A DNA stretch of 47,196 nucleotides from Candidatus Omnitrophota bacterium (GTDB taxonomy: Bacteria; Omnitrophota; Gorgyraeia; Aquiviventales; Aquiviventaceae). Below, piece after piece: positions 1 through 26,175 of the stretch. The stretch is from the NCBI GenBank assembly GCA_016209275.1, contig JACQWM010000042.1, positions 1 to 47,196 of the forward strand, in the 5' to 3' direction. Every line of letters begins with the position of its first letter. The stretch's first letter is position 1. Below the pieces are notes generated by a model that was given only the letters and a program-made list of their open reading frames with translations, was not told the DNA's origin and ran no database searches. The translations under genes and the position numbers were made by a program.

Positions 1-3000
1 GGGTTACGGTGTTCTGGAACGTGCCGGTCGGGGTCCACTGGATGGTGCAGGCCGCGCCTACGACACAGGTCACCCCGCCATCCGGCGCATTCAGCACCAG
101 CTTGCCGGTGATCTCAAAGGGATTCGCGGAGTTATCACCCACCGCCGGGTTATTGGCATCCTCCACCCGCACCTTGATGATGTTGCCCAAGATCTTGTTA
201 GGAACCGTCCATGGGTAACTCCCATTGGGATTGCCAGCACTCACCGTGCCGGAATCATCGATGATGTTCGGGTAGCTGGTGCCGCTATCCGTGGAGTAGT
301 AGAGCTTGACGTTCGTGATGTTGCCGGTCTTGGTCCAGGTGATGGAGTACGGATCGCCCACGAACAGCTCGATGCCGCTGGCATCCGGCGCACTGAGGAT
401 CAACTGGCCCTTGACCGTGAAGACGGCGTTGGACTTATCGTTGACCACCGTGTAGCTGACCCCCTCGACCTTGATCTTCATGTTGGGGCTGGTCGGCACG
501 GTGTTGTCGATGAACCAGGCGTAGGGGCTCGCGGTGGCCGCAATCCCGGACGTGGTAATCTCGTTCCAGGTCGGGGTCGTGCTGTTGCCATCGGCGGCAT
601 AGTAGAGTTTGACCGTCTTGCCGGCGGTGGCCCAATCCCCCCTCTTGGTCCAGGTGATGTTGTAGGTCGAGCCCACATCCCAGGACTGGCCGCCGTCCGG
701 GGCGGTCAAGTCGAGGAAGCCGCGGATCTCGGCATTGTTCAAGCCCACGTTGATGGTGTCGGCATTGTTCGGATCGCTGACGCGGACCTTCAGGCTGGTG
801 GTGAGGGTTGCGGGGACGTTCCAATCGCACGTCCCGGCCCCGGAGGGGGCCAACCCATCATTGGTCCCGCCGCAATACGGCGTCGTCTCATCAATCACCG
901 TCCAGTCGCTCCCGCCGTTGAGCGAGTACTCAATCTTCACGTTCGGGAAGTTCGTCGGGTTCCCCCCGACGGTCCAGGTGACCGCCGTGGGGGTCTCCGC
1001 CGTCACCGGCACCCCGTTCTCCGGCGCGGTCAACTCCAGCACCGCCTTGATCGCGAAGGTGTTGGATTCATGCTGAACCACGTAGGGATAGGCCTCGCTG
1101 TTGCTGTCGGTGGCCTTGATCTTGTACTGCAGGCCGAGGGCATCCGGAATGTCCGCTTCCAGCCAGGTGTAGGTCTCCAGCGCCCCCACGGCATTGACCG
1201 GCGTGTGGGTCGTAATGAGGGTGTAGGTGGAGCCGTTGTTGCTGGAGTAGTAGAGCTTCACACTCGCCACCGAGCCGGTGCGCGTATAGCTAATCGCCTG
1301 CGAGGCGGCGTTGACCGCGACGTTGGCCGGCATCGGCTCTAAGACGAGCTTGCCCGCGATATGGAAGACCGGCGAGTCGTCGATCACATTGGCATTGCCA
1401 TTGTCCGTCACCCGGATCACCACGTTCTCGGAGATCGCATCCGGGATATTGTCCCAGGTGTAGCTGCCGGCCCCGGCGGTGAGGGTCACGGCACTCGCCC
1501 CGGCCCCCAAGGTGGTCCACGTCCCCCCGCTCTTGGAGTATTCGAGCTTGACCGAGCTGACCGTATTCGCCACGGTGCTGGTGCTGGTGATATTGACCAC
1601 ATGGCCGTTCGTGCCAACCACCAAGTCAGTCAATCCCTGACTGTCGATGTCCCCGGTGGGAACCGCCACGGTCAAGACCGGCCGAATCGAGAAGGTGTTC
1701 GTGGAAGTATCCGTGACGCTGGTGTAGCTGGGGTTATCATGCGTGATGCGCACCTTGGCCGCCTCGGTCTTGACATCCGGGATCGGGTTCCAGACGTAGG
1801 TTTGGTTGCCATTGCCGTTGGTCGCCAACTGCCCGGCGGTCAGCGTGGCAATCGGCTGCCAGGCCAGACCGTCATAGTATTCGAGCTTGATCGGGTTGAC
1901 CTGGCCGGTACCAGTCCACTTGATCTCTTGGCTCGTCCCTTTATTCCAGACAAGGCCAGCGTCCTCAGGCTGGGTCAAGGTCAGCACCCCATAGATGTTG
2001 TTGACGGAGGCGGAGGTCTTGACCACGCCGGTAAAGTTCGGATCGCGCACGCGCACCTTCAAGGCAGTGGTAATTTCGCTGGCGGTGGGGGTCCAACTGC
2101 CATAGGATGTCGGCGACCCATCGGTGCCTGGGGCGGCCGCGCTGGTAATCAACTGCCAAGTCGGCGAGGTCGAGTCCCCATCCAGCGCATACTCCAACGT
2201 CAAGTTATTCGGGAAGCTGCCGGTGGGCGTCCATTGGATATTGCACGCCGTGCCCACCGAACAGGTCACCCCGCCGTTGGGCGCGTTCAAGGTCAGGGTG
2301 CCGCCGATCTTGAAGGCATTGGTGGAGATGTCAAAGACATCGGTGTTGCCGGCATCGACGATCTTGACCTTCCGATTGGCCCCGATGCTATTGGGCACCG
2401 TCCAGGAGTAGCTGCCGTTGGGGTTGCCAGCGCTCACCGTGCCGGAATCATCGATGACATTCGGGAACGTCGAACCGTTGTCCGTGGAGTAGTAGAGCTT
2501 GACGTTGGTGATGTTGCCGGTCTTGGTCCAGGTGATGGAGTAGGGATCGCCCCCGCGGTACATTTCAATCCCGGCCGCATCCGGCGCACTGAGGATCAAC
2601 TGGCCCTTGACGGTGAAGACGGCGTTGGACTTATCGTTGACCACCGTGTAGCTGACCCCCTCGATCTTGATCTTCATGTTCGGGCTGGTGGGCACGGTGT
2701 TGTCGATGTACCACAGATACGGGCTGCTAGCCGCCGCCACGCCCGTGGCAATCTGCGCCCAGGTCGGGCTCGTGCTATTGCCATCCGGGGCGTACCAGAG
2801 CGAAACCGTCTTGCCGGCCGTGGCCCAATCGCCCTTCTTGGTCCAGATGATGTTGAAGGTGGAGCCCACATCCCAGGACTGGCCGCCATCCGGGGCGGTC
2901 AAGTCGAGGAAGCCGCGGATCTCCACGTTGGTGCCATCACCCACGTTGATCGTATCGGTGTTGTTGGGATCGCTGACGCGCAGCTTCACGGTCGTGGTCA

Positions 3001-6000
3001 ACGTATTCGGCACGTTCCAGCTGCAGGAGCCCGCTCCGGCCGGAGCAAGACCATCATCGACCGTGCCGCAGGCTTCCTGGATCGGATTCCAGGGGCCGGC
3101 GATGCCGTTAACCGAGTATTCGAGCTTGACGTCCGTCAAGCCGGTCGGGCTGCCGCCGATGCTCCAGGTGACACTCGCTGGGGTCTCCGCCGTGACCACC
3201 GCGCCATTCTCCGGGGCGGTCAGGTCCAGCACGGCCTTGATGGCGAACTGGTTGGAGACATCTTGGACGATGTAGGGATTCGCCTCGCTGTTGCCATCGG
3301 TGGCCTTGACTTTGTACTGTAAGCCCAACGCATCCGGCATCGTGGTCCAAGCCGGAGCGTACGTGCCCGGAGAAGAGTGGGGATTCGTGCTGATCAACGT
3401 GTAGTTGCTGCCGTTATCCGAGGAGTAGTACAACTTTACTGAGGTAATCGTGCCGGTCGTGGTATACGTAATCGCCTGGGTCTTGGGCGTTACCGGGACA
3501 TTTGCTGGCATCGCCCCTAACTGGATCTTTCCGGCAATATGGAACACGGGCGAGTCATCCAGCACATTCGCATTACCGTTGTCGGTCACGCGGATGACCA
3601 CGTTCTCGCTGATCGCATCCGGGATGTTATCCCACGTGTAGCTGCCCACACCATTCGTGAGGGTCACGGCATTTGCCCCAGCGCCCAGCGTGGTCCACGT
3701 CCCGCCGTCCTTGGAGTATTCCAGCTTGACGGAGCTGACCGTGTTCGCCACAGTGCTGGTGCTGGTCACATTGACGACATGGCCGTCCGTGCCAACGACC
3801 AAGTCGGTATCCCCTTGGCTGTCGATATCGCCGGTCGGCACCGCCACCGTCAGCACCGGGCGGATGGAGAAGGTGTTGTCGGACTCATCCGTGACCACCG
3901 AGGAGAAGTTCGTGTCATCATGCGTCACGCGGACCTTGGCCAGCTCGGTCTTGATGTCCGGGATCGGGTTCCAGGTGTAGGTCTGCACGCCATCGCCGTT
4001 GGTCGTCAACTGCCCCGCGGTTAAGGTGGCCATCGGCTGCCAGGCGGTGCCGTCGTAGTACTCCAGCTTGATCGGATTCACATTACCGGTGCCGGTCCAC
4101 TTGACCTCCTGGCTGGTCCCCTTGTTCCAGACGATGCCGGTCAGATTCGGCTGGGTCACCACCACATTGCCGCGGATCTTGTTGTTCGAAGACGATTGCA
4201 CCGTCACATCGCCGGCATTGGCAGGGTCCAGCGCCCGGACCTTCATCTGTGCGCTGATTTTATCCGCCGCCGGGCTCCAGCTTGAGTACGTCTGTAGCTG
4301 CGTTGTGGTGCCGGCCGCCACGGTGGCGATGGTGGTCCAGGTAGGGGTCGTCGTGTCCGCGTCAAGCGTGTAGTCCAGCCGGACATTGGTCCACGTGCCG
4401 GTCGGCGTCCACTGAATCGTGCAGGTTGAGCCCACCACACAGGTGACACCGCCTGTCGGCGCTCCTAACGTAAGCTTGCCCACGATCGTAAACGGATTAG
4501 TCGAGGTGTCAACCACATCCGAGTTGCCGGCATCAACGATCCTGACCTTCATGACGTTGCCGAGGATCTTATCCGGCACCGTCCACGGGTAGGTTTGATC
4601 GGAGGCGTTCACGGTTGCGCTATTATCAATGACGTTCGGGTAGTCCGTGCCGCCATTCTGCGAATAAAAGAGATTGACCTTGAACGTGCCGGTGGCGGTC
4701 CAGGTGATCGACTTTGGATCGCCGACTTTCAAGGGCTGGGCTTCGTTATCCGGCGCGGTCAAGTTCAGCACGCCCTTGACCGTGAAGTCCGCCTGCGAGG
4801 CGTCGTTGACGTAGGCGGCATCGGCAATGCTCTCAATCTTGATGCGGTACAGCTTGGAGGTCTGGCTCGGGATCGTCCAGTCGTACTTCGGCCCGCCTGA
4901 GCCTTCGAGGTTGTTGTAGGCGATCGGGTTTTGCACCGTCACCGGCCAGGTCGAGCCGCTGTTCAGGCTGGCTAAGATTTGCAGGTTGCCGAGGTTCCCT
5001 CGATAGGTCCAGGTGATGGGGATGTTGCCTGCCCCCACCGTGTAGGTCTGACTCTCCGCCAAGGTCAAATCCACAACGCCCTTCACATGGAACGCCGCGG
5101 TCTCATACGCCACCGTGTTGTCAGTCGCATCCTCGATGCGCAGCTTGACGTTCGTGCTGATCAGATCCGGCACTTCCCAGGAGCAGTTGAGGTTCGAGGC
5201 GGTGACCTGGTTGCAGGGCGCTGCCAACTGGACGAATGCCGCGCCATCCTTGGAGTAGAACAGCTTCACGTTGGCGATGTTGCCGCTCTTGGTCCATTGG
5301 ATCGTGTGGTTGGTGGTCGCGTCACCGGCCTTGCTGACCTTCACCGCGCTGGCGTTGATGTTGGAGCCGCTGGGATTGCTGATTTGCAGCTTGCCCTTGA
5401 TGGTCAGATTGCCGCCAGTCACCAGCACGTCGTTCGGGAACGCGTTGCTGCGCACACGAAACTGCACCTGATTGCCGATCGCATCAGGAATATGTCCAAA
5501 CAGCGACCAATCCAGCCCGTTGCCATTGCTGATATTGCTGGCAATCGTGCCACCCCCTGATGGGGGCCAGGTCGTGCCGCCATCCGTGCTATACAGCACA
5601 TCCACGGTGTTGACGGTGCCGTCAGTCGCCCACGTCATCGCCGGCGTGTCCTCGCCGACGTAGAGCGTTTGGCCTCCGCTCAAGTTCAACGTGCGCAATT
5701 TGGCTTTGATGACAAAGGCCGGAGAAATCGAGTTGATCGACCCATCGCTGCGGGCTTGGATCTTGACCATAAACTGCGCATTCTTCGCGTCGGCGATCGC
5801 GTTGGTCGGAATCGGATCCCAGTTGTACGCCTGGGCCGACGCATCCAGCACGGTGGGTGTTCCCACAATCGTGCCGGTGAAGCTTTGGCCGTTATCAATG
5901 GAGTACAACAGATCCACGTTCCCCAGCGCCCCGCCCAGCGGAGTCCACGTAATCGCCCCGATGCCGCCAAGCTCCCAGACGCTGGAGCCATTCGGCGTGT

Positions 6001-9000
6001 TCAGCGTCAGATTGCCCTTGATCTGAAAGAGCGCAGAATCCGCCTTGGTGTTGGTCTCATCACCCACCAGCTCGACGCGAATCCGCATGGTGTTGTAGAT
6101 CACATCGGCGTCAGGAACCACCCAGGTGCAGGATTGCGTGCTCGCCGGCAGCACCGCGGAATCAGGGTTAGGGTTGGTGCACATGGCGTCATTCCAGGCC
6201 GTGCCATCCTTCGAATACCGAACGCGCACATCGCTGGCCCAGCTTGATGGCGAGGACGCCCAGGTGATCGTCGCCGTGTTGCCGATCAGGTACAGCGACT
6301 GGTTAGTCTGAACGTTCGTGATATTACCCTTCAAGGCAAACGCCTGGGTGACCCCTGCGGTTCCGGTCACCGGGTCAGGCTCGGTGGTTTTGTAGACTTT
6401 GATTTTGCATGTGCTGCATTGCTGATCCGGAATATTGGTCCAGTTGTAGGCTCCTGCTGACGCATTGAGCGTAAAGCCCGGGGTCGGATAGTCCAGGGCC
6501 ACGATGTTCACGGTGCAGTCCACATCGTTGCCGGTGGGTGTGAGGCAGATGTACACATTACCGATGCTGCCTGAGGGGGTCCAGGTGATGGAGAAGTTGC
6601 TTCCGACGCGCAGCGTATCGCTGGAGGTCGGAGCGGTCATCAAAATCTTGCCCTTGACCGTGTACGGCCCGAATTGGTCATACACCAGATCAACATTCGC
6701 CTCTTCTGCCACGCGAATGCCGACGTTGGTCCCAATGATGTCCGGCGGATTCCAGGTATAGAGGGTGGTGGGATCGGCCACAGGACTTAAGCCCGTCGCG
6801 GTCGTTGGTGTGGTCATGGTGACCCAGCAGGCATTCGCCCACGCATTGTCCTTGCACGTGCTGTAGCTCGTGGTGTATTTGATGGCCACGTTGGTCAAGC
6901 CGCTGCCACCGCCGATGTCGATCGTGATAGGTTGCGCCTGGCCCACGCGTAACGTGGTCGTGGTCACAGGACTATGCATGGCGACCGAGGCGATGATGCT
7001 CAAGAAGCCATCGCCGGCATCAGGACCCGTGTCAAATATAGTCGAGCTGCCGCTCTGCATGACTTTGATCTTGACGGCCGCGCTCTGGGGAGTATTGGAA
7101 GGAATCGGATTCCAGTCGTAGCAGAGCTTGCCGCTCGCGCACCGATTGCTGGTTTCACAGCCATTGGCGCCTGTGCCCGCATAAAAATGCGTGGCATCAT
7201 TGGCCCCAAGGGTCAGATTGGTCGCAATGGCCGTATAGGCCCCACCGCTGACGTTGTACAGCACATCGACGTTGTTCACATCGCCGGTCGTGGTCCATTG
7301 AATCGTCCGGCATCGTCCCACCGGCCATTGGTCGGTGTCAATCGGCTTCTCGACCGTAATCTGCGGCCGGATTTCAAAATTCGGGCTTGAGACGCCAAAG
7401 ATGCCATTGTTCGCATCGGTCGCCGCCGTCGCCAGCTCTGTCCGAATCGTGAATGTCGTCGCGGGATTATTCGGAATAGACGGCCACGCATATCCCGTAC
7501 CCCCAGCGCTGGGCGTAAACCCGCGCTGCATGGTGCCGCCGGTTCCGGCTCCAGGATTGGTGGACCCATTCAAGGTATAGTGGGTGGCATCTACATTGGT
7601 AATCGTCCAAAAGCTATTGTTGGCCGAAACGCTGTTTCCCGTGATCCAGACTTTATCGTTCGTTGCCAATCCATGGGCCGAAGCTGTCGTCACCTGGACA
7701 GGCGTTGCCGCTGAGGTTGAGCTAATCGTCACCGCGGCAGGCAGGTTGCTGTCAAATGCGGCATTTTTGTAGAGTTTCAGCAACACAACCCCATTGTCAT
7801 CTAAGTTGCCGACCTTGCTCCACGTGATCGTGCGCGTGGTCTCGCCGACATAACACAAGTTGCTGGGACAATCTGGATTGGTCGCACTCACACTCCCTCG
7901 AATCGTAAAGTCCGCATTAGACGCATCGCAGTTTCGCTTAGTGCAGTCGCTCGCAGACAACGTCGTGTCCATGAGGCGTATGCGCGCGGTGGTCACATCG
8001 GTATCCGCAGCATCAATGGCGGCTTGAATGGTGCTCCAGGTGGCGTCGTTCCAGGCATACGCATCAGCCCCAGCCGACACGCCGGTCGCAATCTTCGTCG
8101 TCTTGTAGGCCCCGCCGCTATTGAGTGACAACTCAATCGTGAGCGCGTGGGCCGCGGCATCCGCGCTATGCTTCCAGGTAATCGGCGCGGTTTGGCCGAC
8201 CTGCCAGACCTCTCCACCGTTGGGTTGGAGCAGAGTGATCGGCGGGAACTGCGCCACGAAGTACTGCAAGTCGGCGACGAGGGGGGCGGCGATGACCGCC
8301 TGCACTGAAGCCGACCGGAACGAGTAGAATGTGGACGTGTCGGAGACATCCGCCACAACAGCCATGTCATCCGCAAGGGCTCTGGCGGCGTTTGCAGCAC
8401 CAATGTTGGTTGGCGCCGTCGACGCAACCAACACGATCATTCGATCGAGGTGCTCCAGTGGTGCCGTGCTGAGCGTTGTTGTCTTCGCTTTAATGTAGGT
8501 GCCGTTCGTCGTGCAGTCATCGGCCCCGCCGTTGCCGGTTGATCCGTTCAGCGTGAAGGTATTCGCGCCCGTGTTCGTGATCACCCAGAGTCCATTGGCG
8601 GTTGGATTACCTGCCGTACCCACGGTCGAACCGCTGATATGCACCATGTCCCCGGTGCTTAGTCCATGAGACGTTGAGGTAATGATGATCGGTCCGGCGT
8701 TGCTGTTGTCACAATTGGTCCATGAAGTGGTTCCGCCGCCGGACGTCCATTGCTGCGTGCCGCCTTGGACCAAAGTGGTTGTGGTTGAGGTGTCACCGCC
8801 AGTCAGATCAACCACGTAATACCTCGTCACGGCTTCGGTGCCGGCAGTGCTTTCCGTCCCGCCTCGCGTGAAGGTCAGTGTTGTGGCATTGGTGATCGCC
8901 CCACGGGCAATGTACAGTTGGTCATGCCCTGCGGCCGCCGTGCTAAACGCCGTGGAATACGGAAAGAGCAGCGCACTGGCGCCGCTGTTGGTCAGGGCTG

Positions 9001-9865
9001 GACTCAGCGCGCCGGAGTTGGTTGGCAATGGCCCGCCGCTATCAGGATCAGCGCCGCTGTTCGTCATGGTTTGATTCGCTGAGTCAGTCGCTACTGGGAA
9101 ACCTATCTGTCCGGTTTGCACCGTAGCATCGTAATTGAACTCAATCACCTGCCACACAATCTGGATCGCTTTTGTTCCCGAAGCGCGATAGCGCGTCAGC
9201 AGCATATTGCTGGAATCAGTGAAGGTGGGCAGCAACATGAGCTGGTTCGTCTGCGTCGAGGTGGTAAACGATGCGCGCGTATTGATGATTGGCACGGCCC
9301 GGCAGGGATAGGTCGATGGGCTGCAGTTGCTGCCATCCGGCTTGGTCACGCTGAGGCTCGTCGGCATCGTAATCGTTTTTGTCAGTTGATTCGACTGCAT
9401 ACTGGAAATGCCTCGCTGCACGCTCACCCCATCCTCAAACTCCACCACCTGCCAGCCGACTGAGGAAAACACCGTGCCTCCGGCGCGGTCAATAGCAATC
9501 GTGTCATTATCCTCAAACTGCCCGGTGAAAAACTGATTCTGATCCGCAGCGACTGATTCAACGAGGGAGGACAGCAAGATGATCGATTTGGCCTGATTGA
9601 TTGTTCCGCCAATGCTGGTCGTCTGCACGGTATCGTCCGCGTCAAACACCACTTTGCCGCGGTAGACTTTCTTGATCTGCGAGGCTTCAAGGTCCGTCAG
9701 ACCAAGAGCCTCCTTAATGGTCTGGAATGGTTGCGGGGCCCATGTCGGAATCGGCAGCGGCACGCCGTTGAAGGTGAGCGCAAATGCCAGCGCGCCGCGA
9801 ACCACTTTCATCCACGGCCTGTGGAAGAACGACCACGATGCGGGATAGGCTCCGCCGTCGTTCAT
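1..9865 (-). CDS. Giant repetitive exported protein, partial (C-terminus beyond left edge)
   Basis: The minus-strand frame from ATG 9865 stays open to the window edge, giving 3288 codons without a stop in my translation. The start follows a strong ribosome site (AAGGAGGTGAG) and overlaps the upstream stop as ATGA. The N-terminus has basic residues then a hydrophobic stretch (about residues 19-45), consistent with export. Residues about 60-270 hold two related segments centred on WQVVEFEDG and WQVIEFNYD. Residues about 390 and 740 carry HGLSTGD/HGLATND motifs resembling FCCH-like beta domains. From about residue 540 onward there are about 26 Ig-like domains of about 100 residues with a pattern like VGxxxxITW, NVKLYYS, YSWTVPD, resembling bacterial Kre9/KNH (PF10342) repeats. 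Domains 12-18 and 19-25 form two copies of a 7-domain unit and domain 26 opens a third. An adhesin or surface-layer role is inferred. Confidence 0.9.
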   Translation of the reverse strand, partial: MNDGGAYPASWSFFHRPWMKVVRGALAFALTFNGVPLPIPTWAPQPFQTIKEALGLTDLEASQIKKVYRGKVVFDADDTVQTTSIGGTINQAKSIILLSSLVESVAADQNQFFTGQFEDNDTIAIDRAGGTVFSSVGWQVVEFEDGVSVQRGISSMQSNQLTKTITMPTSLSVTKPDGSNCSPSTYPCRAVPIINTRASFTTSTQTNQLMLLPTFTDSSNMLLTRYRASGTKAIQIVWQVIEFNYDATVQTGQIGFPVATDSANQTMTNSGADPDSGGPLPTNSGALSPALTNSGASALLFPYSTAFSTAAAGHDQLYIARGAITNATTLTFTRGGTESTAGTEAVTRYYVVDLTGGDTSTTTTLVQGGTQQWTSGGGTTSWTNCDNSNAGPIIITSTSHGLSTGDMVHISGSTVGTAGNPTANGLWVITNTGANTFTLNGSTGNGGADDCTTNGTYIKAKTTTLSTAPLEHLDRMIVLVASTAPTNIGAANAARALADDMAVVADVSDTSTFYSFRSASVQAVIAAPLVADLQYFVAQFPPITLLQPNGGEVWQVGQTAPITWKHSADAAAHALTIELSLNSGGAYKTTKIATGVSAGADAYAWNDATWSTIQAAIDAADTDVTTARIRLMDTTLSASDCTKRNCDASNADFTIRGSVSATNPDCPSNLCYVGETTRTITWSKVGNLDDNGVVLLKLYKNAAFDSNLPAAVTISSTSAATPVQVTTASAHGLATNDKVWITGNSVSANNSFWTITNVDATHYTLNGSTNPGAGTGGTMQRGFTPSAGGTGYAWPSIPNNPATTFTIRTELATAATDANNGIFGVSSPNFEIRPQITVEKPIDTDQWPVGRCRTIQWTTTGDVNNVDVLYNVSGGAYTAIATNLTLGANDATHFYAGTGANGCETSNRCASGKLCYDWNPIPSNTPQSAAVKIKVMQSGSSTIFDTGPDAGDGFLSIIASVAMHSPVTTTTLRVGQAQPITIDIGGGSGLTNVAIKYTTSYSTCKDNAWANACWVTMTTPTTATGLSPVADPTTLYTWNPPDIIGTNVGIRVAEEANVDLVYDQFGPYTVKGKILMTAPTSSDTLRVGSNFSITWTPSGSIGNVYICLTPTGNDVDCTVNIVALDYPTPGFTLNASAGAYNWTNIPDQQCSTCKIKVYKTTEPDPVTGTAGVTQAFALKGNITNVQTNQSLYLIGNTATITWASSPSSWASDVRVRYSKDGTAWNDAMCTNPNPDSAVLPASTQSCTWVVPDADVIYNTMRIRVELVGDETNTKADSALFQIKGNLTLNTPNGSSVWELGGIGAITWTPLGGALGNVDLLYSIDNGQSFTGTIVGTPTVLDASAQAYNWDPIPTNAIADAKNAQFMVKIQARSDGSINSISPAFVIKAKLRTLNLSGGQTLYVGEDTPAMTWATDGTVNTVDVLYSTDGGTTWPPSGGGTIASNISNGNGLDWSLFGHIPDAIGNQVQFRVRSNAFPNDVLVTGGNLTIKGKLQISNPSGSNINASAVKVSKAGDATTNHTIQWTKSGNIANVKLFYSKDGAAFVQLAAPCNQVTASNLNCSWEVPDLISTNVKLRIEDATDNTVAYETAAFHVKGVVDLTLAESQTYTVGAGNIPITWTYRGNLGNLQILASLNSGSTWPVTVQNPIAYNNLEGSGGPKYDWTIPSQTSKLYRIKIESIADAAYVNDASQADFTVKGVLNLTAPDNEAQPLKVGDPKSITWTATGTFKVNLFYSQNGGTDYPNVIDNSATVNASDQTYPWTVPDKILGNVMKVRIVDAGNSDVVDTSTNPFTIVGKLTLGAPTGGVTCVVGSTCTIQWTPTGTWTNVRLDYTLDADTTTPTWTTIATVAAGTTTQLQTYSSWSPAADKISAQMKVRALDPANAGDVTVQSSSNNKIRGNVVVTQPNLTGIVWNKGTSQEVKWTGTGNVNPIKLEYYDGTAWQPMATLTAGQLTTNGDGVQTYTWNPIPDIKTELAKVRVTHDDTNFSSVVTDESDNTFSIRPVLTVAVPTGDIDSQGDTDLVVGTDGHVVNVTSTSTVANTVSSVKLEYSKDGGTWTTLGAGANAVTLTNGVGSYTWDNIPDAISENVVIRVTDNGNANVLDDSPVFHIAGKIQLGAMPANVPVTPKTQAITYTTTGTITSVKLYYSSDNGSNYTLISTNPHSSPGTYAPAWTTMPDALGLQYKVKATDGNSEANPYIVQDVSNQFAIKAVLDLTAPENGAVVTAETPASVTWSIGGSPTGLTDVKLEYSVNGIAGPWNPIQEACGTVDDGLAPAGAGSCSWNVPNTLTTTVKLRVSDPNNTDTINVGDGTNVEIRGFLDLTAPDGGQSWDVGSTFNIIWTKKGDWATAGKTVSLWYAPDGNSTSPTWAQIATGVAAASSPYLWYIDNTVPTSPNMKIKIEGVSYTVVNDKSNAVFTVKGQLILSAPDAAGIEMYRGGDPYSITWTKTGNITNVKLYYSTDNGSTFPNVIDDSGTVSAGNPNGSYSWTVPNSIGANRKVKIVDAGNTDVFDISTNAFKIGGTLTLNAPNGGVTCSVGTACNIQWTPTGSFPNNLTLEYALDGDSTSPTWQLITSAAAPGTDGSPTSYGSWTPTASEITTALKVRVRDPNFTGVVKTSASVNNIYGVLTLTQPEDAGLVWNKGTSQEIKWTGTGQVNPIKLEYYDGLAWQPIATLTAGQLATNGNGNQTYVWNPIPDVKTEAAKVRITHDNPSYTSVTDTSTNTFSIRPVLTVAVPTGDIDSQGLTDLVVGTNGHVVNITSTSTVANTVSSVKLEYSKSGGTWTTLGAGASAVTLTAGAGSYTWDNIPDAISENVVIRVTDNGNANVIDDSPVFHIAGKLVLEPMPANVAVNAASQAISYTRTGSVASVKLYYSSNNGSTYTLITTHTPVNAVGALETYTWLEADIPDALGLQYKIKATDSNSEAYPYVVQHESNTFAIKAVLELTAPENGVPVTAETPTAVTWTVGGNPTNFPNVKIEYSLNGGSDWTVIDETTPYCGGTNDGLAPSGAGTCDWNVPATLTTSLKVRVSDPNNADTINVGLNNAEIRGFLDLTAPDGGQSWDVGSTYNITWTKRGDWATAGKTVKLYYAADGNSTTPTWNEITTSGIAATASPYAWFIDNTVPTSPNMKIKVEGVSYTVVNDKSNAVFTVKGQLILSAPDASGIELFVGDPYSITWTKTGNITNVKLYYSTDSGTSYPNIIDDSGTVSAGNPNGSYPWTVPNKILGNIIKVRVEDANNPAVGDNSANPFEITGKLVLNAPDGGVTCVVGAACTIQWTPTGTFQNTVT
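107..2302 (-). repeat. 7-domain super-repeat, copy B (2196 bp)
   Basis: This block inside the giant gene encodes seven Ig-like domains (732 residues) and matches the neighbouring block 2303-4480 domain for domain. Stretches near 414-720 and 2609-2916 look about 90 percent identical by eye at a fixed offset of 2196 bases. The next unit starts at 106 and leaves the window. Confidence 0.85.
2303..4480 (-). repeat. 7-domain super-repeat, copy A (about 2178 bp)
   Basis: This is the upstream partner (in coding direction) of the 107-2302 block. It has the same order of domain openings: LTLGAP, VVVTQP, LTVAVP, IQLGAMP, LDLTAPEN, LDLTAPDGG, LILSAPD. It is 18 bases shorter, so small in-frame indels have accumulated. 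The domain before it resembles the seventh domain of the unit, suggesting older amplification. Confidence 0.85.
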
Positions 9866-10287
9866 TGCGCCTCACCTCCTTCTGAAAGGTTGGGAGCGTC
9901 TGGCACAACCAGTGCGGCTTTCATCAGCGTGATTTTGGTGGCCACCCGTTTCGACTTGGTCTGGTCGTAATCCGTCTTGTCCTTAAAAATCGTCTCGCGA
10001 TACTCCACGTCTACATAATCCCCAAGATGAAGATCTTTGAGCGATTTGATCGCGACAAGCTGCGCTTTATCATCCAGCGGAAAGGCCATCTCGATGCCAT
10101 CTGTGGATTTCGCGCTCTGCGGGCTTTCCACGGCGATGAATTTCGCGCCGACACCGCTGACCAATCCGGTCACATGCTTATACGCCACCTGCTCTTCTTT
10201 GACGGCAGCCTCAGGCGCGGCTGACGCGGCCGCCATGCCCACTCCGAAGGCCACCACGAGTGCGGCCACCATGCGGTATCTGTTCAC
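9862..10287 (-). CDS. Small exported protein, unknown function
   Basis: This encodes a 141-residue protein with a clear signal peptide (MNRYRMVAALVVAFGVGMAAASA). The mature part is small and beta-rich in appearance, with VTGLVSGVGAKFIAVES, LGDYVDVEYRE and KRVATKITLM segments. These resemble OB-fold or DUF5666-like periplasmic proteins, but I cannot assign a family firmly. Its stop overlaps the start of the giant gene (ATGA at 9862-9865). It begins one base after the stop of the RAYT-fusion gene, so the three genes are almost certainly co-transcribed. A role in export or anchoring of the giant protein is possible but only inferred from position. Confidence 0.85.
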   Translation of the reverse strand: MNRYRMVAALVVAFGVGMAAASAAPEAAVKEEQVAYKHVTGLVSGVGAKFIAVESPQSAKSTDGIEMAFPLDDKAQLVAIKSLKDLHLGDYVDVEYRETIFKDKTDYDQTKSKRVATKITLMKAALVVPDAPNLSEGGEAQ

Positions 10288-10288
10288 C

Positions 10289-11581
10289 TTAAATCTCCTT
10301 GCGGTGCGTCTGGTCCTTGAGGACCCCGACGAAGGTGTATTCTTCAGGCGATTTGCCGGTGTCTTGATGCGTCAGCACGCCTCGCATGACTTGGTCGCGC
10401 CATTCGCCCCGCCAGCGCACCACGGCCCCGGAGGGTTTGCTCTGCATCGTCTCCCAGACCATCTCTCCGTTGGCATTGCGGGTCGCGGTATAGTTGGACG
10501 AGGGGAAGCCTTGCGCGCTAAACAGGCTGGACGCAATCTCATGATCGGTGAACGCCAGATGATCGTGTTTCGCCGCTGTTCCGCTTGCCGGCGAAAGAGA
10601 GCTCAGCGTTAAATCCCAGGCCGTACCCTCAAGGCTGGCCCGCTGGTTGAACATGGCCAGTTGCGCCGAGGTGGCCTCAGCCCGCCGCAGGCTGCCGATC
10701 GATTTCAAGAAAACCGCCGCCGCGTGCTCTTCTTGCCCGATGACGTTGACATTCGCGCGGAACGTTGAGACGGTCTTTACTGAAAGGATGACCGACACAA
10801 CGGCTACTGCGGTAACCGCCAGAGCGGCTGTCACCATTGGAGACTTGGTGGCAAAGCGACCCAGTGACCCAGTGGTCGTGTCATGGCCACCTGGCCACCT
10901 GGCCACCTGGCCACCACCTGTCGTTTCTTGTCTCTGGCGTCGTTGCTCTTCAACCCGCCGCAGAAATTCCTCGGACCCGACCACCGGCCGCTCCATCGCC
11001 TGCTGCCACTGCCGCAACTCTTGCGCCGTCAATGACGCCATCGCCTGCTCGTATGTCTGCCCTGGATGCGTTCGGCTCAGCATATCTTGGACCTCCCGTA
11101 CCTCGCCGCTCGTGATCGGCCCGATTGACGATCCGTTTACGGCGAGGTAGCTGGGATAGCTGCTCCACGCATAGGCGCCGAAATCCTGTGCAACACCCGC
11201 CGCGTTCGGCAGTTGGTGCAGCACAGCCGTTGCATACAGCACTGAGGGCGCTTTTTCCATCAAGGTCATGGCAAACCGCGAGCGAAAGATGTGTCCCGTG
11301 TGGTCATGCCGCTTCCCCACATATTTGGTGTAGCGCGAATTGAGCGCATGCATGATGGCCGACACCGTGGCCCCGTTGGTCGGCTCCAGCAGCAGGCGAA
11401 CCTCACTGGGCAGCAGGACAAAGGCATAGAGCCGGAAGCTAAACCGCTGCTTGGCTTCTTGGAGGAATTGGAGGTAGGTCTCGTAATCTTGTGTCTCGCG
11501 GAACAGAGGGACCCCCTCCATCGCTTGGGATGTCACCGCATAGAGGGCTCCTTCGATATGGACTCTCACCGGCCTCGGCAT
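10289..11581 (-). CDS. Degenerate RAYT (REP-associated transposase) domain fused to a membrane segment and a periplasmic domain
   Basis: The protein has about 430 residues. Residues 1-145 look like a RAYT/Y1 transposase (PF01797 type): EGALYAVTSQAM, LFRETQDYETYLQFL, SRYTKYVGKRHDHTGHIFRSRF. The Tyr-containing helix is kept, but the HUH metal motif, normally like PNHVHLL, reads PSEVRLL near residues 57-63, so both histidines are gone. A linker (about 200-246) includes a GGGQVARWPGGH stretch encoded by an 8-base repeat. Residues about 248-268 are a transmembrane helix. Residues about 316-422 match a domain shared with the proteins at 19725-20369 and 25517-26173 (LxGTxW, DxLxF, VWE, GxV, FxG). 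Predicted topology puts the RAYT part in the cytoplasm and the C-terminus in the periplasm. Transposition is unlikely; a domesticated nucleic-acid-binding or sensing role is inferred. Confidence 0.85.
   Translation of the reverse strand: MPRPVRVHIEGALYAVTSQAMEGVPLFRETQDYETYLQFLQEAKQRFSFRLYAFVLLPSEVRLLLEPTNGATVSAIMHALNSRYTKYVGKRHDHTGHIFRSRFAMTLMEKAPSVLYATAVLHQLPNAAGVAQDFGAYAWSSYPSYLAVNGSSIGPITSGEVREVQDMLSRTHPGQTYEQAMASLTAQELRQWQQAMERPVVGSEEFLRRVEEQRRQRQETTGGGQVARWPGGHDTTTGSLGRFATKSPMVTAALAVTAVAVVSVILSVKTVSTFRANVNVIGQEEHAAAVFLKSIGSLRRAEATSAQLAMFNQRASLEGTAWDLTLSSLSPASGTAAKHDHLAFTDHEIASSLFSAQGFPSSNYTATRNANGEMVWETMQSKPSGAVVRWRGEWRDQVMRGVLTHQDTGKSPEEYTFVGVLKDQTHRKEI
10884..10915 (-). repeat. Four perfect 8-bp tandem repeats inside the RAYT-fusion gene
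   Basis: The unit TGGCCACC (plus strand) is repeated four times without mismatch. It lies in the linker between the RAYT domain and the transmembrane helix. The unit length is not a multiple of three, so gain or loss of one unit would shift the frame before the membrane segment. Confidence 0.9.
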
Positions 11582-11626: not shown

Positions 11627-11745
11627 GTGCCAGGCACCGCATCTGGTCCCAGCCTAGAACCGCCCCATAAAGAAGAAGGAAGATGCCGACAGTGCCAGGC
11701 ACCGCCATGACGCGCGCCTGACACTGAAGCTGTTGTGCCTGGCAC
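11627..11745. repeat. Cluster of four GTGNCAGGCRC palindromic repeats upstream of the RAYT gene
   Basis: Copies are at 11627-11637 (GTGCCAGGCAC), 11692-11702 (the same), 11714-11724 (GTGTCAGGCGC on the minus strand) and 11735-11745 (GTGCCTGGCAC). Each is a near-perfect short palindrome starting with GTG. RAYT genes are typically flanked by REP palindromes, so these are the natural candidates for the cognate repeats. The same core is inserted in two coding genes at 13379-13422 and 14716-14762. Confidence 0.75.
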
Positions 11746-11759
11746 CCGGAGCCGGGCAC

Positions 11760-11787
11760 AAAAAAACTACGGCTGGGAAAGCCGTAG
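11760..11787 (-). terminator. Intrinsic terminator between riboswitch and RAYT-fusion gene
   Basis: Read on the minus strand, CTACGGCT pairs perfectly with AGCCGTAG across a 5-base loop and is followed directly by seven T residues. It lies downstream of the riboswitch and upstream of the first gene, so it is a second point where transcription could stop. Confidence 0.75.
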
Positions 11788-11892
11788 CTCCGCTTCCGCC
11801 ACACTACGTGGCGGACCCGCCAAAGTTCTGTGGCGGGGGGACTCATTTGATTCGCGTACCACTTCCAAGAACTCATTCAGCACCCCATCAAC
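11788..11892 (-). ncRNA. Structured leader segment with two strong hairpins, unassigned
   Basis: On the minus strand this leader segment contains CCCGCCA/TGGCGGG and TCCGCCAC/GTGGCGGA hairpins in direct succession, just before the 11760-11787 terminator. It lies between two intrinsic terminators. It may be part of an extended expression platform or a second RNA element; I do not recognise an Rfam class. A 97-residue reading frame crossing it is mostly hairpin sequence and is not believable as a gene. Confidence 0.5.
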
Positions 11893-11924
11893 AAAAAACG
11901 TCCTCCGCAAAGCGAAGGACGTTT
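11893..11924 (-). terminator. Riboswitch expression-platform terminator
   Basis: On the minus strand AAACGTCCT (11924-11916) pairs with AGGACGTTT (11904-11896), nine perfect pairs, followed by a T run to 11893. The left arm can instead pair with GACGTT at 11933-11928 to form a six-pair antiterminator. That same segment is the 3-prime strand of the aptamer P1 helix. The layout predicts that ligand binding favours termination, though the P1 helix has mismatches and this is inference. Confidence 0.85.
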
Positions 11925-11927
11925 CTC

Positions 11928-12076
11928 AACGTCTGGCAACCCGGCTATCCCACCCCCTGCTGGTGCGCCGAAGGCGCACGCTGCAATGCAGCGGTCGCTT
12001 TTAGCGACGCCAGCAGGGGGTGGGACCCGTGGCTTTGCGTCCCCCGCTTACGCGGGGTTTGCCCTGAACAGTGGTT
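11928..12076 (-). promoter_or_regulatory. Cyclic-di-GMP-I (GEMM-I) riboswitch with an expanded, three-hairpin P3 arm
   Basis: On the minus strand the hallmark GEMM elements occur in order: CAGGGCAAACC (about 12066-12056), P2 stem CCCCGC-GTAA-GCGGGG with a GNRA loop (12057-12042), GACGCAAAGCC (12041-12031), the P3 arm, and AGCCGGGTTGCC (11946-11935). P1 can form between AACCACTG (12076-12069) and CAGACGTT (11935-11928) with a 2x2 mismatch. The GGG after CA is the form usual for c-di-GMP rather than the cGAMP-type variant. P3 is unusual: a perfect 16-bp stem (11948-11963 with 12010-12025) encloses three consecutive 15-nt hairpins of 6 bp each. It lies between a promoter and the RAYT-fusion/giant-protein operon. 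Confidence 0.92.
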
Positions 12077-12114: not shown

Positions 12115-12144
12115 ACCATACCTGAACCGGTGTTTGGCTGTCAA
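12115..12144 (-). promoter_or_regulatory. Sigma-70-like promoter for the riboswitch operon
   Basis: Minus strand -35 TTGACA (12144-12139), an 18-base spacer and -10 TATGGT (12120-12115) place a start near 12108, about 30 bases before the first conserved aptamer residues. Confidence 0.7.
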
Positions 12145-19724: not shown

Positions 19725-20369
19725 CTAGAACCAGCCGCGCTTTTTCTTTTTTTCCTGTGCTGCGTGGGGGGATGTCGCCGCCGGTGCCGAGGGGGGCGCG
19801 GGCGGTACAACCACGGCCGAAGGTGGCGGCGGGGTTGCTGGCGGTGGCGTGACCGCTTCAGGATTCACAGGAACCGGTGGTGCCGCCGGCGGAGCTGGCG
19901 GTGTGGGAGTTTGACTCGGATCAATCACCTTGCCGCTCGTTTCAGTGCCGGAAAACTCGTAATCCATCGGCTTGCCTTTGGCCGGGGCCTCGCTGATCAC
20001 CCCCTGAAGGCTGCCGCCGCGGAACTCCCCGTGCAACCGCACGATGCCAAGCTTCTCATCCGAGAGGGTCGTGTCCCACACCGGGGTCTGGGCATTCGGA
20101 AACGTCAGCGAATAATTAGAATTGGCATAGCCGGCTTTTGTCAATCGCTCGGAGACCACGCCCCATTTCGTAAACGTCAGCGTGTCCTTCTGGGATCTGC
20201 CTTTCGACTCCGACGGGGACTGCATGTCGACCGTCCAGACGGTCCCATCGAGCTGGGCTCGCACATTCTTTTCCATCTGCTGCGCATCGGCTGCCATCGC
20301 CGCTGATGCCCTCGCCATCCCGACCACTATTGCAAGCGCCATCCATCGACCCGCGACGTTCCGCCCCAT
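19725..20369 (-). CDS. Exported protein with the shared domain and Pro-rich tail
   Basis: This encodes 214 residues. ATG 20369 is chosen over upstream codons because AGGAGGAAACGCA precedes it and it opens a proper signal peptide (GRWMALAIVVGMARASAAMA). Residues about 35-145 match the C-terminal domain of the RAYT fusion and of the protein at 25517-26173: LDGTVW, KDTLTF, SERL, NYSL, VWD, GIVRLHGEF, GVI, YEFSGTETSGK. The C-terminal 60 residues are rich in Pro, Ala, Thr and Val, end in a basic KKKKRGWF, and look like an extended linker or wall/membrane-associated tail. The domain is not one I can name; a small beta-barrel is plausible. Confidence 0.85.
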   Translation of the reverse strand: MGRNVAGRWMALAIVVGMARASAAMAADAQQMEKNVRAQLDGTVWTVDMQSPSESKGRSQKDTLTFTKWGVVSERLTKAGYANSNYSLTFPNAQTPVWDTTLSDEKLGIVRLHGEFRGGSLQGVISEAPAKGKPMDYEFSGTETSGKVIDPSQTPTPPAPPAAPPVPVNPEAVTPPPATPPPPSAVVVPPAPPSAPAATSPHAAQEKKKKRGWF

Positions 20370-20420
20370 TGCGTTTCCTCCTGATAGATTCAGGTTGCGG
20401 TCCATGTACATGTTGTTGCC

Positions 20421-20449
20421 AGTATACCACAAGGCCAAAGCCGACAACA
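20421..20449 (-). promoter_or_regulatory. Candidate extended -10 promoter before the 19725-20369 gene
   Basis: Minus strand TGGTATACT (TG-n-TATACT) at 20429-20421 with a weak TGTTGT 17 bases upstream. It lies in an 82-base gap, the widest between adjacent genes in this run, and would allow separate expression of the last two genes. Confidence 0.5.
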
Positions 20450-20451
20450 GA

Positions 20452-22260
20452 TCACTCCGGCGGGGTCCCGGCGAAATCAACGTCGGTCTCATCGCGGTCT
20501 TTCACCGTCACCTTCGCCCCGGTCGGGTTGAAGCTCACCGCCCGCAGCTTGACGGCAGCCCCGAGCGTGGTCTCGCGCTTGAGCTCGTAGGTCGGCGTGA
20601 CTTGGTAGGTGCCAGGGCTGACACCCTTGAGCAAGTAATACCCCTTCGCATCCGTCTTAGCGTGTTGCAGGGTCGTGCCGAAGGCCGAGAGGGTGACGGT
20701 GGCGTCCCGAAGTGGTAGGCCGGTGGAATAATCCTGGATGTATCCTGAGATCGAGACGCTCATTTCGCGGACCGTGACCTCAAGCGTTTCCGTGGTGATC
20801 AGAGCCCCGTCGGTCGCCTTCAGACTGATGGTGTAATGGCCTGATTGGTCAAACCGCGGCGACCAGGTGAGGAGCCCGGTCCGATCGGATCGGTCTTCGA
20901 AGGCCGCGCCATCCGGCAGAGGTTTCGCGGAGAGATACACCGCGTCTTCATCAGCATCAACGGCGCGCACCGCCAGTTTCAGGCTGCGCCCTTCATCCAC
21001 GGTCTGGGGCTTGATGGGATCGAACACCGGGGCCCGGTTTTGCGTGTCGTTGACCGTGATGGTGATTTTGGCCGTGGCGCACAGCGGCTCGGGGTCGCAG
21101 ACCTCCACGCGCACCCGGTCATACACCGTCTTCGGCTCGGCCAGGGTGGCAATCTTGGGGCCGGGGCTGCCGCTGATCGTGCAGGTGGCGCTGTCGAACT
21201 TCGTCCACGGCGGAAGCCCTGAGACTTTGCAGATCAAGGGGTCGTCTTCGGGATCGCTGGTCACAAACCTCGCCGTCAGCGGCTCGGCTTCATCGACCGT
21301 CTGATCGCCGGGCGAGTCGATCTGCGGCGGGCTGTTATGATCGGTGACCGTCACCGCCCACGGACTTTTCGTGCAGAGGGGTTCGGGATCGCAGATGCTG
21401 AAGACCACGTCATAATCTTTCCTGGGGGATTTCTTCGAGCATTCCTGCGGGCCGGGAATGCCGTGCAGCTCGCCGGTCTTCTCATCAAGATGCAGCCACT
21501 CGGGCAGCCTCAGCGCGGTGTAGCGCAAGGGATCGCGCGCCCCGTCCGGATCCTTGGCGCGGATCGCCAGGGAGACCGGCTGCAGCTCCTTCAGCGTCAA
21601 GGGAGCGAGCGGTTCAACGACGGGCGGGCGGCTCGGGTTGGACAGTTTCACGATCACCGGATGGGAGCTGGCCATGTTCTTGGCGCGGTCAAAGGCGCGG
21701 GCCACGAGCGAGCAGCGGACGTTCGGCAGCGTCGTCGAATCCCATGACACCACATAGGGAGCCGTGGTGGCCTCTCCCACCGCTTCCCCATTCACCAGAA
21801 ATCTGACAGCGGCGATGCCGATGATGTCGCCGGCCTGCGCCTCCAAGGCGACCACGCCGCCGATCGCCGAGCCCTCCGCCGGGCTGCTCCACGCAACGCT
21901 CGGCGGCGTGTTATCGACGGTCACGGAGCATCGCGACGACAGCGCGGTCCCCGAGGCTCTGTTGCGAGCCCGGGCCGTCAAGACGTAGGGCCCGTCGGCT
22001 GCTCGGCGCGTGTCCCACTCCACGCGGTACGGCGGCAGCGCGTCAGCCCCGAGCACCTCGCCGTCAGCTAGGACGGTGACATGATCAATGGCCTCCGCGG
22101 TGTTGACGCGCACGGCGATGGTGACGACGCCTTTGAGCGCGTCGCCTTGGCGCGGTTCGGTGATCGTGAGGGAGGGCTCTTCGGCCTCGGCGGGGACGGT
22201 CAGGCACGCCCCGGTCGCCGTCAACAGCAGCACCATGGGGAGAACGCGATGAGGAGGCAC
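20452..22260 (-). CDS. Exported Ig-like protein with C-terminal carboxypeptidase-regulatory domain
   Basis: This encodes 602 residues with an N-terminal signal sequence (VLPMVLLLTATGACLTVPAEA); a lipoprotein cysteine at 19 is possible but the lipobox is poor. Residues about 28-215 hold two Big_7-like Ig domains (ITEPRQGDALKGVVTI; WSSPAEGSAIGGVVAL, PYVVSWDS). Residues about 220-505 hold three cadherin/He_PIG-like domains (PPVVEPLAPLTL, PPQIDSPGDQTVDE, APVFDPIKPQTVDEG). Residues about 510-600 are a CarboxypepD_reg-like beta-sandwich (ISGYIQDYSTGLPLRDATVT, TDAKGYYLLKGVSPGTYQV). It probably sits in the periplasm or on the surface. It starts 3 bases after the stop of the coiled-coil gene. Confidence 0.85.
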   Translation of the reverse strand: MPPHRVLPMVLLLTATGACLTVPAEAEEPSLTITEPRQGDALKGVVTIAVRVNTAEAIDHVTVLADGEVLGADALPPYRVEWDTRRAADGPYVLTARARNRASGTALSSRCSVTVDNTPPSVAWSSPAEGSAIGGVVALEAQAGDIIGIAAVRFLVNGEAVGEATTAPYVVSWDSTTLPNVRCSLVARAFDRAKNMASSHPVIVKLSNPSRPPVVEPLAPLTLKELQPVSLAIRAKDPDGARDPLRYTALRLPEWLHLDEKTGELHGIPGPQECSKKSPRKDYDVVFSICDPEPLCTKSPWAVTVTDHNSPPQIDSPGDQTVDEAEPLTARFVTSDPEDDPLICKVSGLPPWTKFDSATCTISGSPGPKIATLAEPKTVYDRVRVEVCDPEPLCATAKITITVNDTQNRAPVFDPIKPQTVDEGRSLKLAVRAVDADEDAVYLSAKPLPDGAAFEDRSDRTGLLTWSPRFDQSGHYTISLKATDGALITTETLEVTVREMSVSISGYIQDYSTGLPLRDATVTLSAFGTTLQHAKTDAKGYYLLKGVSPGTYQVTPTYELKRETTLGAAVKLRAVSFNPTGAKVTVKDRDETDVDFAGTPPE

Positions 22261-25503: not shown

Positions 25504-25516
25504 GAGGGGACCTTTG

Positions 25517-26173
25517 TTAGTGATGACCCTGCGGTGTCGTTGGAGCCTCTGTGGCGATCCCAAGCGGCATCGCCGCCGTGGCCGTTGCCGGCAGGCGCAC
25601 TGTCTTGCCGCTGGTCTCCGCCCCTGAGAAGGAAAAATCTTGGTGGGCTTCTCCGCCGGCGCGCTTGCTGAACACCCCGCGGATGGCATTGCGCTGCAGC
25701 TCAGCGTGCCAAAACACGATCCCAGCGGCCTCGCTGCGCATCATGGATTCCCACACCAGCGCCTCGCCTTCCCCAAAGCTCAACGTATACTTGCTCGCCG
25801 CAAACCCCTCTGCGGCGAGCCGCTCCGAGGCCACCTTGCCGTCGTCGAACATGAGGATGTCTTTCTGGGAGGGCGCTGGCGATGCCGGCCTAAGCGGGGT
25901 GACGTCGATCCGCCATCGCGTGCCGCCAAGCTGCGCGTTCAGGTGATCCAGCGGAGAATCCGGCGCAGCCATCGGCGTCGGTGAAATCACAGGCTGCGCC
26001 GCCACTGGAACCGTCGGCTCGTCCGCGGCGTAAACTGGCAGCGCACTAGAGAACCACAGAAGGGCCGCAGCAACACCGCTTACCCTAGCAGAGATCGTGG
26101 ATCGTGGATCGTGGATCGTGGAAGAACCAGCACCTTCAAATCCACCATCCACCATCCACCATCCATGATCCAT
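25517..26173 (-). CDS. Exported protein with the shared domain and repeat-encoded N-terminus
   Basis: This encodes 218 residues starting at ATG 26173, which shares a base with the upstream stop (TAATG). The first 28 residues are encoded by 7-base tandem repeats (MDHGWWMVDGG and STIHDPRSTIS) and precede a normal signal sequence (VSGVAAALLWFSSALPVYA). No better start codon is seen between them. Residues about 80-200 match the domain of the RAYT fusion and the 19725-20369 protein: LGGTRW, KDILMF, SERLAAEGF, YTL, VWES, GIVFWHAEL, GVF, FSFSGAETSGK. Function unknown; periplasmic or outer-membrane location is inferred. Confidence 0.85.
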   Translation of the reverse strand: MDHGWWMVDGGFEGAGSSTIHDPRSTISARVSGVAAALLWFSSALPVYAADEPTVPVAAQPVISPTPMAAPDSPLDHLNAQLGGTRWRIDVTPLRPASPAPSQKDILMFDDGKVASERLAAEGFAASKYTLSFGEGEALVWESMMRSEAAGIVFWHAELQRNAIRGVFSKRAGGEAHQDFSFSGAETSGKTVRLPATATAAMPLGIATEAPTTPQGHH

Positions 26174-26175
26174 TA
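26094..26175. repeat. Two facing 7-bp tandem repeat blocks
   Basis: GATCGTG is repeated four times (about 26096-26125) and a TCCACCA/TCCATGA-type heptamer four to five times (about 26143-26172). The two blocks face each other as a rough inverted repeat and form the start of the 25517-26173 gene. Confidence 0.8.

Follow-up and report, generated by a model that had tools for sequence, protein, structure and literature searches.

RAYTs are a leading example of domesticated bacterial transposases, and their cellular job is unsettled. In the window (the whole stretch of 47,196 nucleotides analysed here, from a Candidatus Omnitrophota bacterium), one open reading frame raises the question of what a RAYT does once its catalytic residues have been replaced and it has been joined to a membrane helix. 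The original prediction saw in it a domesticated transposase that serves as a DNA or RNA binder at the membrane, possibly reading REP-like hairpins or the riboswitch hairpins upstream. The reading that we favor, to which we give somewhat less than an even chance, is that of a membrane-bound autoregulator that binds palindromes in its own control region, acts over a c-di-GMP switch and gates a giant surface protein. The protein and its parts, together with two proteins that share its C-terminal domain, are located as follows:

10289..11581 (-): fused protein of 430 aa (P0001), RAYT, transmembrane helix and beta-barrel C-domain (ORF, orthologues, alignments)
11144..11581 (-): RAYT (TnpAREP/Y1 transposase-like) domain, aa 1-146 (NCBIfam NF047646, AF2, Foldseek 4ER8)
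11390..11410 (-): former HUH motif, aa 58-64, PSEVRLL, His60->Glu and His62->Arg (alignments)
11222..11224 (-): former catalytic tyrosine position, now Val120 (state ERV, alignment)
10916..11143 (-): helical extension of the RAYT domain, aa 147-222 (invariant alignment columns, AF2 helices)
10772..10840 (-): transmembrane helix, aa ~248-270 (hydropathy, helix 248-315 in the model)
10313..10633 (-): C-terminal 8-stranded beta domain, aa ~317-423 (family searches, AF2)
19725..20492 (-): exported protein with a C-domain like that of the fused RAYT (C-domain recurrence)
25517..26209 (-): a further exported protein with such a C-domain (C-domain recurrence)

The frame at 10289-11581(-) opens with an ATG and has no internal stops. 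The NCBIfam model REP_Tyr_transpos matched aa 6-140 (E=2.7e-12) with 46.8 bits, below its RAYT equivalog cutoff of 80 bits, and Pfam Y1_Tnp scored 22.7 bits for a cutoff of 23. An AlphaFold model, for which the window sequence and the sequences of related loci were the input, gave the RAYT domain a pLDDT of ~95, followed by a long helix (248-315) and a confident beta domain (320-423). The top PDB fold match in Foldseek was 4ER8, the complex of TnpAREP with a REP hairpin (rmsd 2.1 A, TM 0.77 by target, E=6e-7). A PDB sequence search using the fused-protein profile returned no match, and a search of a viral fold library returned no useful one. Profile, model and fold match thus all bear out the RAYT-type N-terminus that had been proposed. 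The proposed loss of the HUH motif was likewise recovered when the canonical HUH/Tyr residues were placed via the 4ER8 alignment: the two histidines are now E60 and R62, and the catalytic Tyr is V120. Since the RAYT fold is present but the catalytic residues are replaced and the score falls below the cutoff, we class the protein as a pseudoenzyme derived from a RAYT and do not count it among the RAYT transposases. Within the helical extension, G202-S203..F206 are conserved in the alignment. We also considered, and rejected, a start further upstream that would give a leader peptide or an extended N-terminus in frame with the ATG, as the frame is open only in some relatives and in L010 a stop abuts the ATG.

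The transmembrane helix that had been noticed is a single hydrophobic helix (aa ~250-268, mean Kyte-Doolittle 2.50), and one TM-like segment was present in 57 of the 59 membrane RAYTs described below. The positive-inside signal is modest (39/59, with 7 ties); from this layout we infer a topology with the RAYT domain in the cytoplasm and the beta-barrel in the periplasm. No family name was available for the C-domain in Pfam, NCBIfam or PHROGs, and its fold matches were weak lipocalin-like barrels, none at E<=0.001, so that no ligand is claimed. A 7-row alignment of this domain was too diverse for patterns, and a 4-row version was usable. The domain was correctly recognised as one shared with exported proteins: the 1.8-Mb genome holds copies in the fused gene and in ORFs 19725-20492(-) and 25517-26209(-), both with N-termini that resemble export signals, and none elsewhere. 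A basic-aromatic tail (KKKKRGWF, KKKKGWFR, KKRWWQW; noted at 19725-20492(-)) closes several of the exported C-domain proteins and is possibly a sorting or anchoring signal.

A single-protein search of the genome contigs found no relative. Full-length orthologues were retrieved from six other genera of the same GTDB family (31-40% identity), and a search across the phylum (384 genomes) yielded ~30 full-length fusions, along with another group that has a RAYT domain and a membrane helix. The loci taken in this search gave 59 distinct membrane RAYTs, nearly all from Omnitrophota; one relative, L068, is labelled Ratteibacteria. Presence is patchy, with matches in 12 of the 79 genomes at least 95% complete under a stricter search, two of the 12 partial only. 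In a tree of the RAYT domain, a phylogeny that had been proposed along with the original prediction, the 59 membrane RAYTs formed one clade (support 100/98) versus 19 ordinary RAYTs. Both HUH histidines were kept in 19/19 ordinary RAYTs compared. Within the membrane-RAYT clade HUH was intact in 30/59 and lost in 29/59, the tree requiring five or more changes; none of the 7 members in the window's GTDB family had kept both His, and the catalytic Tyr was retained by many relatives of the window copy. HUH loss, central to the original prediction, does not therefore define the family, half of which keeps the motif. Instead, these comparisons indicate that the membrane fusion is common to the whole clade and that catalysis decayed several times inside it. 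At one locus (L126, G149:C20) two membrane-RAYT genes stand in tandem, both HUH-lost and each with its own c-di-GMP-I riboswitch.

These data bear directly on the idea that the gene is a decayed transposase, that is, a pseudogene frozen by a chance fusion, for which the loss of HUH and Tyr would speak. Against it, the ORFs are intact in dozens of genera, as is that of the window copy, which also has its full leader, the leader and operon are conserved across relatives, and the catalytic residues were lost selectively. Specifically, from intact to HUH-lost members conservation fell from 1.00 to 0.03 at H60, from 1.00 to 0.48 at H62 and from 0.90 to 0.00 at N124. Further columns that collapse in HUH-lost members are K42, Q46, F88 and Y139, and R3, R6, Y84, K86, G96, R102, F103, E109, H122 and S141 are at least 0.93 conserved in the same members. 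This pattern is one of catalysis lost and surface retained, and not one of general decay. An isolated decay of the window copy is excluded by the orthologues and the 59-member clade, and for the membrane-RAYT family as a whole decay is in effect refuted, leaving it scarcely credible. With one clade of 59 in which HUH was lost in several lineages, the domestication put forward in the original prediction is supported over chance decay.

Upstream of the gene lies a leader whose features, in the order of transcription, are:

12115..12144 (-): promoter-like TTGACA - 18 nt - TATGGT upstream of the aptamer (inspection only)
11931..12072 (-): c-di-GMP-I (GGC variant) riboswitch aptamer with a long loop insert (Rfam)
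11892..11925 (-): first terminator hairpin directly after the aptamer, AAACGTCC...GGACGTTTTTT (fold; present in orthologous leaders)
11760..11789 (-): second terminator-like hairpin with T7, CTACGGC...GCCGTAG TTTTTTT (sequence, fold)
11735..11745 (-): leader palindrome 1, GTGCCAGGCAC in sense orientation (exact match)
11714..11724 (-): degenerate palindrome GTGTCAGGCGC, 2 mismatches (sequence)
11692..11702 (-): leader palindrome 2, GTGCCTGGCAC in sense orientation (exact match)
11627..11637 (-): leader palindrome 3, GTGCCTGGCAC in sense orientation, starting 56 nt before the ATG (exact match)

The leader thus runs from the aptamer through two terminator-like hairpins and three exact GTGCCWGGCAC palindromes plus one degenerate copy to the start codon. 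The aptamer scored 63.2 bits with Rfam RF03167 (gathering score 59) and 67.4 bits with RF01051 (gathering score 35), and is a predicted c-di-GMP-I riboswitch of the GGC variant. Promoter-like boxes similar to those of the window are found in orthologous leaders, and a hairpin comparable to the second terminator-like one in the leaders of six family orthologues. A riboswitch was called by Rfam at or above threshold at 44/58 membrane-RAYT loci, and at several loci without a call the aptamer is visible, interrupted by an insert. The window's own 1.8-Mb genome (G000) holds 20 c-di-GMP-I riboswitches versus 1-6 in ten relatives from other families. At L106 (G199), a fused RAYT has a leader without an Rfam riboswitch or palindrome, and the gene is instead followed by a c-di-GMP-I riboswitch. 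Palindromes (GATATC-containing, GTGCCTGGC-type) are found in the variable loops of c-di-GMP riboswitches at L054, L059 and L063 (own genome) and at L145 and L034 (G026), as if REP-like elements insert into riboswitch loops and leave the aptamer unbroken.

The leader palindromes are far more frequent than expected by chance. Exact GTGCCWGGCAC occurs three times in the window (0.04 expected) and four times in the 1.8-Mb genome, three of the four in the fused gene's leader. A palindrome with at most one mismatch lies within 250 nt upstream of 45/59 membrane RAYTs versus 1/19 ordinary RAYTs, and the 78 leader sites observed at this threshold compare with 0.2 on average, and never more than 2, for the whole set in base-shuffled leaders. 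GTGCCAGGCAC-type palindromes precede nearly all C-domain members. In 9/25 relatives examined the genome has one exact copy and the fused gene's leader has one, so that the sole genomic copy is the leader copy; in G077, G120 and G168, genomes of members that lack the C-domain, both genomic GTACCACGTAC copies flank the promoter and riboswitch, ~210 bp apart. The REP-like palindromes foreseen upstream are therefore largely confined to the control region of the membrane-RAYT gene family. A clear palindrome close to the gene is absent at L087, at L106 and in some members without the C-domain. The sister group without the C-domain has the GTRCCACGYA(C) type in seven members and the C-domain members have the CAG/CTG type; palindrome type and domain architecture change together.

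Two observations separate these palindromes from the riboswitch. No such palindrome was found at the 19 other c-di-GMP-I riboswitches of the window's genome or at the other riboswitches in single-palindrome relatives, and at L068 and L117 palindromes are present where an Rfam riboswitch was not found. On the basis of these loci we reject the idea that the palindromes are a riboswitch part. For the same reason the c-di-GMP-I riboswitch, whose hairpins had been suggested as a possible ligand, is more probably a control layer of its own than what the protein binds. In G026, an ordinary RAYT (L027) adjoins a GTGCCWGGCAC-type palindrome with 36 genomic copies, many of them in doublets, and REPs often occur in doublets. 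Taken with the palindrome-free riboswitches and with L068 and L117, this association ties the palindrome to the RAYT, of which it would be the candidate recognition sequence. At a further locus (G019:C37; L009, L025), an HUH-intact ordinary RAYT and then GTGTCWGACAC palindromes lie directly upstream of a fused gene's promoter.

Downstream, the fused gene heads an operon, and the window also carries T2SS/T4P-like genes:

9862..10287 (-): second operon gene, 141-aa exported protein that abuts the fused gene's stop (ORF; same order in relatives)
2..9865 (-): third operon gene, giant repeat protein of >3288 aa with Kre9_KNH-like Ig repeats, running off the contig (ORF; relatives)
26173..30444 (-): T2SS/T4P-like genes of the same cluster, namely ExeA-like AAA ATPase, GspC-like, secretin and coiled-coil TPR protein

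Where a C-domain locus has sufficient sequence downstream, the order fused RAYT, ~150-aa exported protein and giant protein is almost always found. G021 has the complete giant protein (5987 aa), which reaches >3000-5800 aa in other relatives. Long spurious ORFs lie on the + strand opposite the giant gene at 2-9865(-). A similar T2SS/T4P-like order, judged by N-termini and lengths, occurs near the fused gene at L066, L069, L071 and L038. The T2SS-like cluster of the window also contains a 1141-aa coiled-coil protein (22264-25689(-)), and in other genomes, too, coiled-coil-like proteins are encoded upstream of the fused gene. Giant ORFs of Omnitrophota were linked to attachment and predation in a survey of the phylum (PMC10066038), the main text of which makes no mention of a riboswitch, c-di-GMP or transposase; the upstream control module is new relative to that text. 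In a survey of TnpAY1 (PMC6006769) the word 'membrane' is absent, and unexpectedly long proteins were set aside. Among the papers searched, none combined Omnitrophota with a riboswitch.

In the autoregulator reading, the retired REP transposase would be the nucleic-acid-binding part of a membrane-bound one-component regulator, with the RAYT domain in the cytoplasm, anchored by a single helix, and the beta-barrel domain in the periplasm. Several GTGCCAGGCAC copies (GTRCCACGYAC in the sister group) would be bound, both in the vicinity of the promoter and within the transcribed leader, and occupancy of copies on one DNA face would block or tune transcription of the operon. In some relatives, the ~210-bp stretch carrying promoter and riboswitch might be looped. 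Such an operon would have two gates: the first would be c-di-GMP through riboswitch and terminator, and the second the RAYT protein. The periplasmic barrel of this protein may respond to the condition of the envelope or of the secretion machine. As its output, the operon would yield the small exported protein and the downstream giant protein.

The main rival of this reading places the RAYT domain on leader-RNA hairpins, or on single-stranded DNA behind RNA polymerase, so that the giant-operon transcript would be held at the membrane, serving either co-translational export or a post-transcriptional control of the protein's own translation. Known RAYTs bind hairpins (4ER8; PMC8266576), in single-stranded form and not as double-stranded operators (PMC8266576). 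Most of the palindromes are found past the terminator and before the start codon, within the transcribed leader, and the next genes code for exported and giant proteins. In addition, sense-strand palindrome variants comprise 15 C>T versus 1 G>A changes, which keeps G-U pairing, and the center base at up to one mismatch is A in 64 copies versus T in 14, an A-centered preference. This strand asymmetry suggests that one strand is recognised and suits a hairpin no less well than a symmetric operator; against that, 9/15 of the wobble-keeping changes fall at the outermost pair (C11T), which may merely be less constrained.

The spacing of the copies points in the other direction. Distances between neighboring copies cluster at 21, 31-32, 42-43, 53-54, 64-65 and 210-212, with a vector strength of 0.58-0.64 at 10.5 bp, the highest among the periods tried. 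A jitter null gave P=0.0014 for this phasing with loci collapsed at 60% identity to 20 clusters, in a test conceived after the spacings had been seen and on loci that share ancestry; at coarser collapsing the phasing was not significant, with too few clusters. Near multiples of 10.5 bp, the spacing favors double-stranded DNA as the target form, although it is suggestive only. Furthermore, at L095 and in several members without the C-domain one palindrome lies upstream of the promoter and outside the leader RNA. Because of these upstream palindromes we lean toward DNA over RNA as the RAYT target, with both models standing, and consider the holding of a transcript at the membrane unlikely, with a real share of the probability.

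The neighboring genes invite two other explanations. The RAYT domain could be a passive scaffold in an envelope machine that exports the giant protein in T2SS-like fashion, with the palindromes as relics of the REPs that flanked the ancestral transposase gene or as a third hairpin of the riboswitch's expression platform. The gene does belong to, or lie close to, a cluster of secretin, GspC-like and ExeA-like genes, the palindromes come soon after the terminator, and REPs normally accompany RAYT genes (PMC8266576). Yet relics would hardly be kept phylum-wide at 25-40% protein identity and on the upstream side only, nor would they be expected to change together with the protein subgroup; other riboswitch leaders do not have the palindromes, and the non-catalytic RAYT residues are strictly conserved. 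We regard a passive scaffold as quite improbable. The HUH fold binds single-stranded DNA. Together with the T2SS/T4P-like neighbors, this could point to a machine for DNA uptake or release in which the protein binds single-stranded DNA at the membrane, but the partner conserved alongside it in the operon is a giant exported protein, no competence genes were recognised among the neighbors scanned, and the private palindromes would be left without explanation. A part in DNA traffic is accordingly given very little weight.

The HUH-intact to HUH-lost RAYT series lies in one clade and one genomic setting with the palindrome conserved throughout, and provides a natural series in which evolution would have separated binding from cutting. 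In addition, the fused RAYT offers the giant proteins of Omnitrophota a testable candidate regulator and an input from c-di-GMP; control of these proteins is absent from the main text of the phylum survey (PMC10066038). That the fused RAYT stands for a new class of transcription regulator, integrated in the membrane and derived from a transposase, combining an HUH pseudoenzyme, a periplasmic barrel, phased palindromes, looping of promoter and riboswitch, and giant-protein operons throughout Omnitrophota, is a tentative proposal that we hold to be rather doubtful.

With regard to known systems, the third operon gene resembles the giant ORFs of Omnitrophota (PMC10066038) in coding for a very long exported repeat protein. 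As in c-di-GMP-I (GEMM) operons, including RF03167, an aptamer and then one or more intrinsic terminators precede an envelope-related operon; unlike in them, a RAYT-type palindrome array follows the terminator and the first gene is RAYT-derived. The protein shares with RAYT/TnpAREP (E. coli TnpAREP, PDB 4ER8) the N-terminal fold and short palindromes nearby, and the GTGCCWGGCAC core is also found beside the ordinary RAYT of the same phylum in G026. It differs from them in the fused membrane helix and exported-type barrel, in the HUH and Tyr lost from the window copy, and in the c-di-GMP riboswitch upstream. The palindromes differ as well, since they lie on the upstream side only, are confined to the gene's own control region in most genomes and, with four genomic copies of which three are in the leader, are not dispersed as REPs. 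ToxR and CadC are membrane-integrated one-component regulators with a cytoplasmic DNA-binding domain, one TM helix and a periplasmic domain. Although there is no family relationship, and the binding domain of the fused protein is HUH-type and not a winged helix, the layout proposed for it would be like theirs, with multiple candidate sites near its own promoter.
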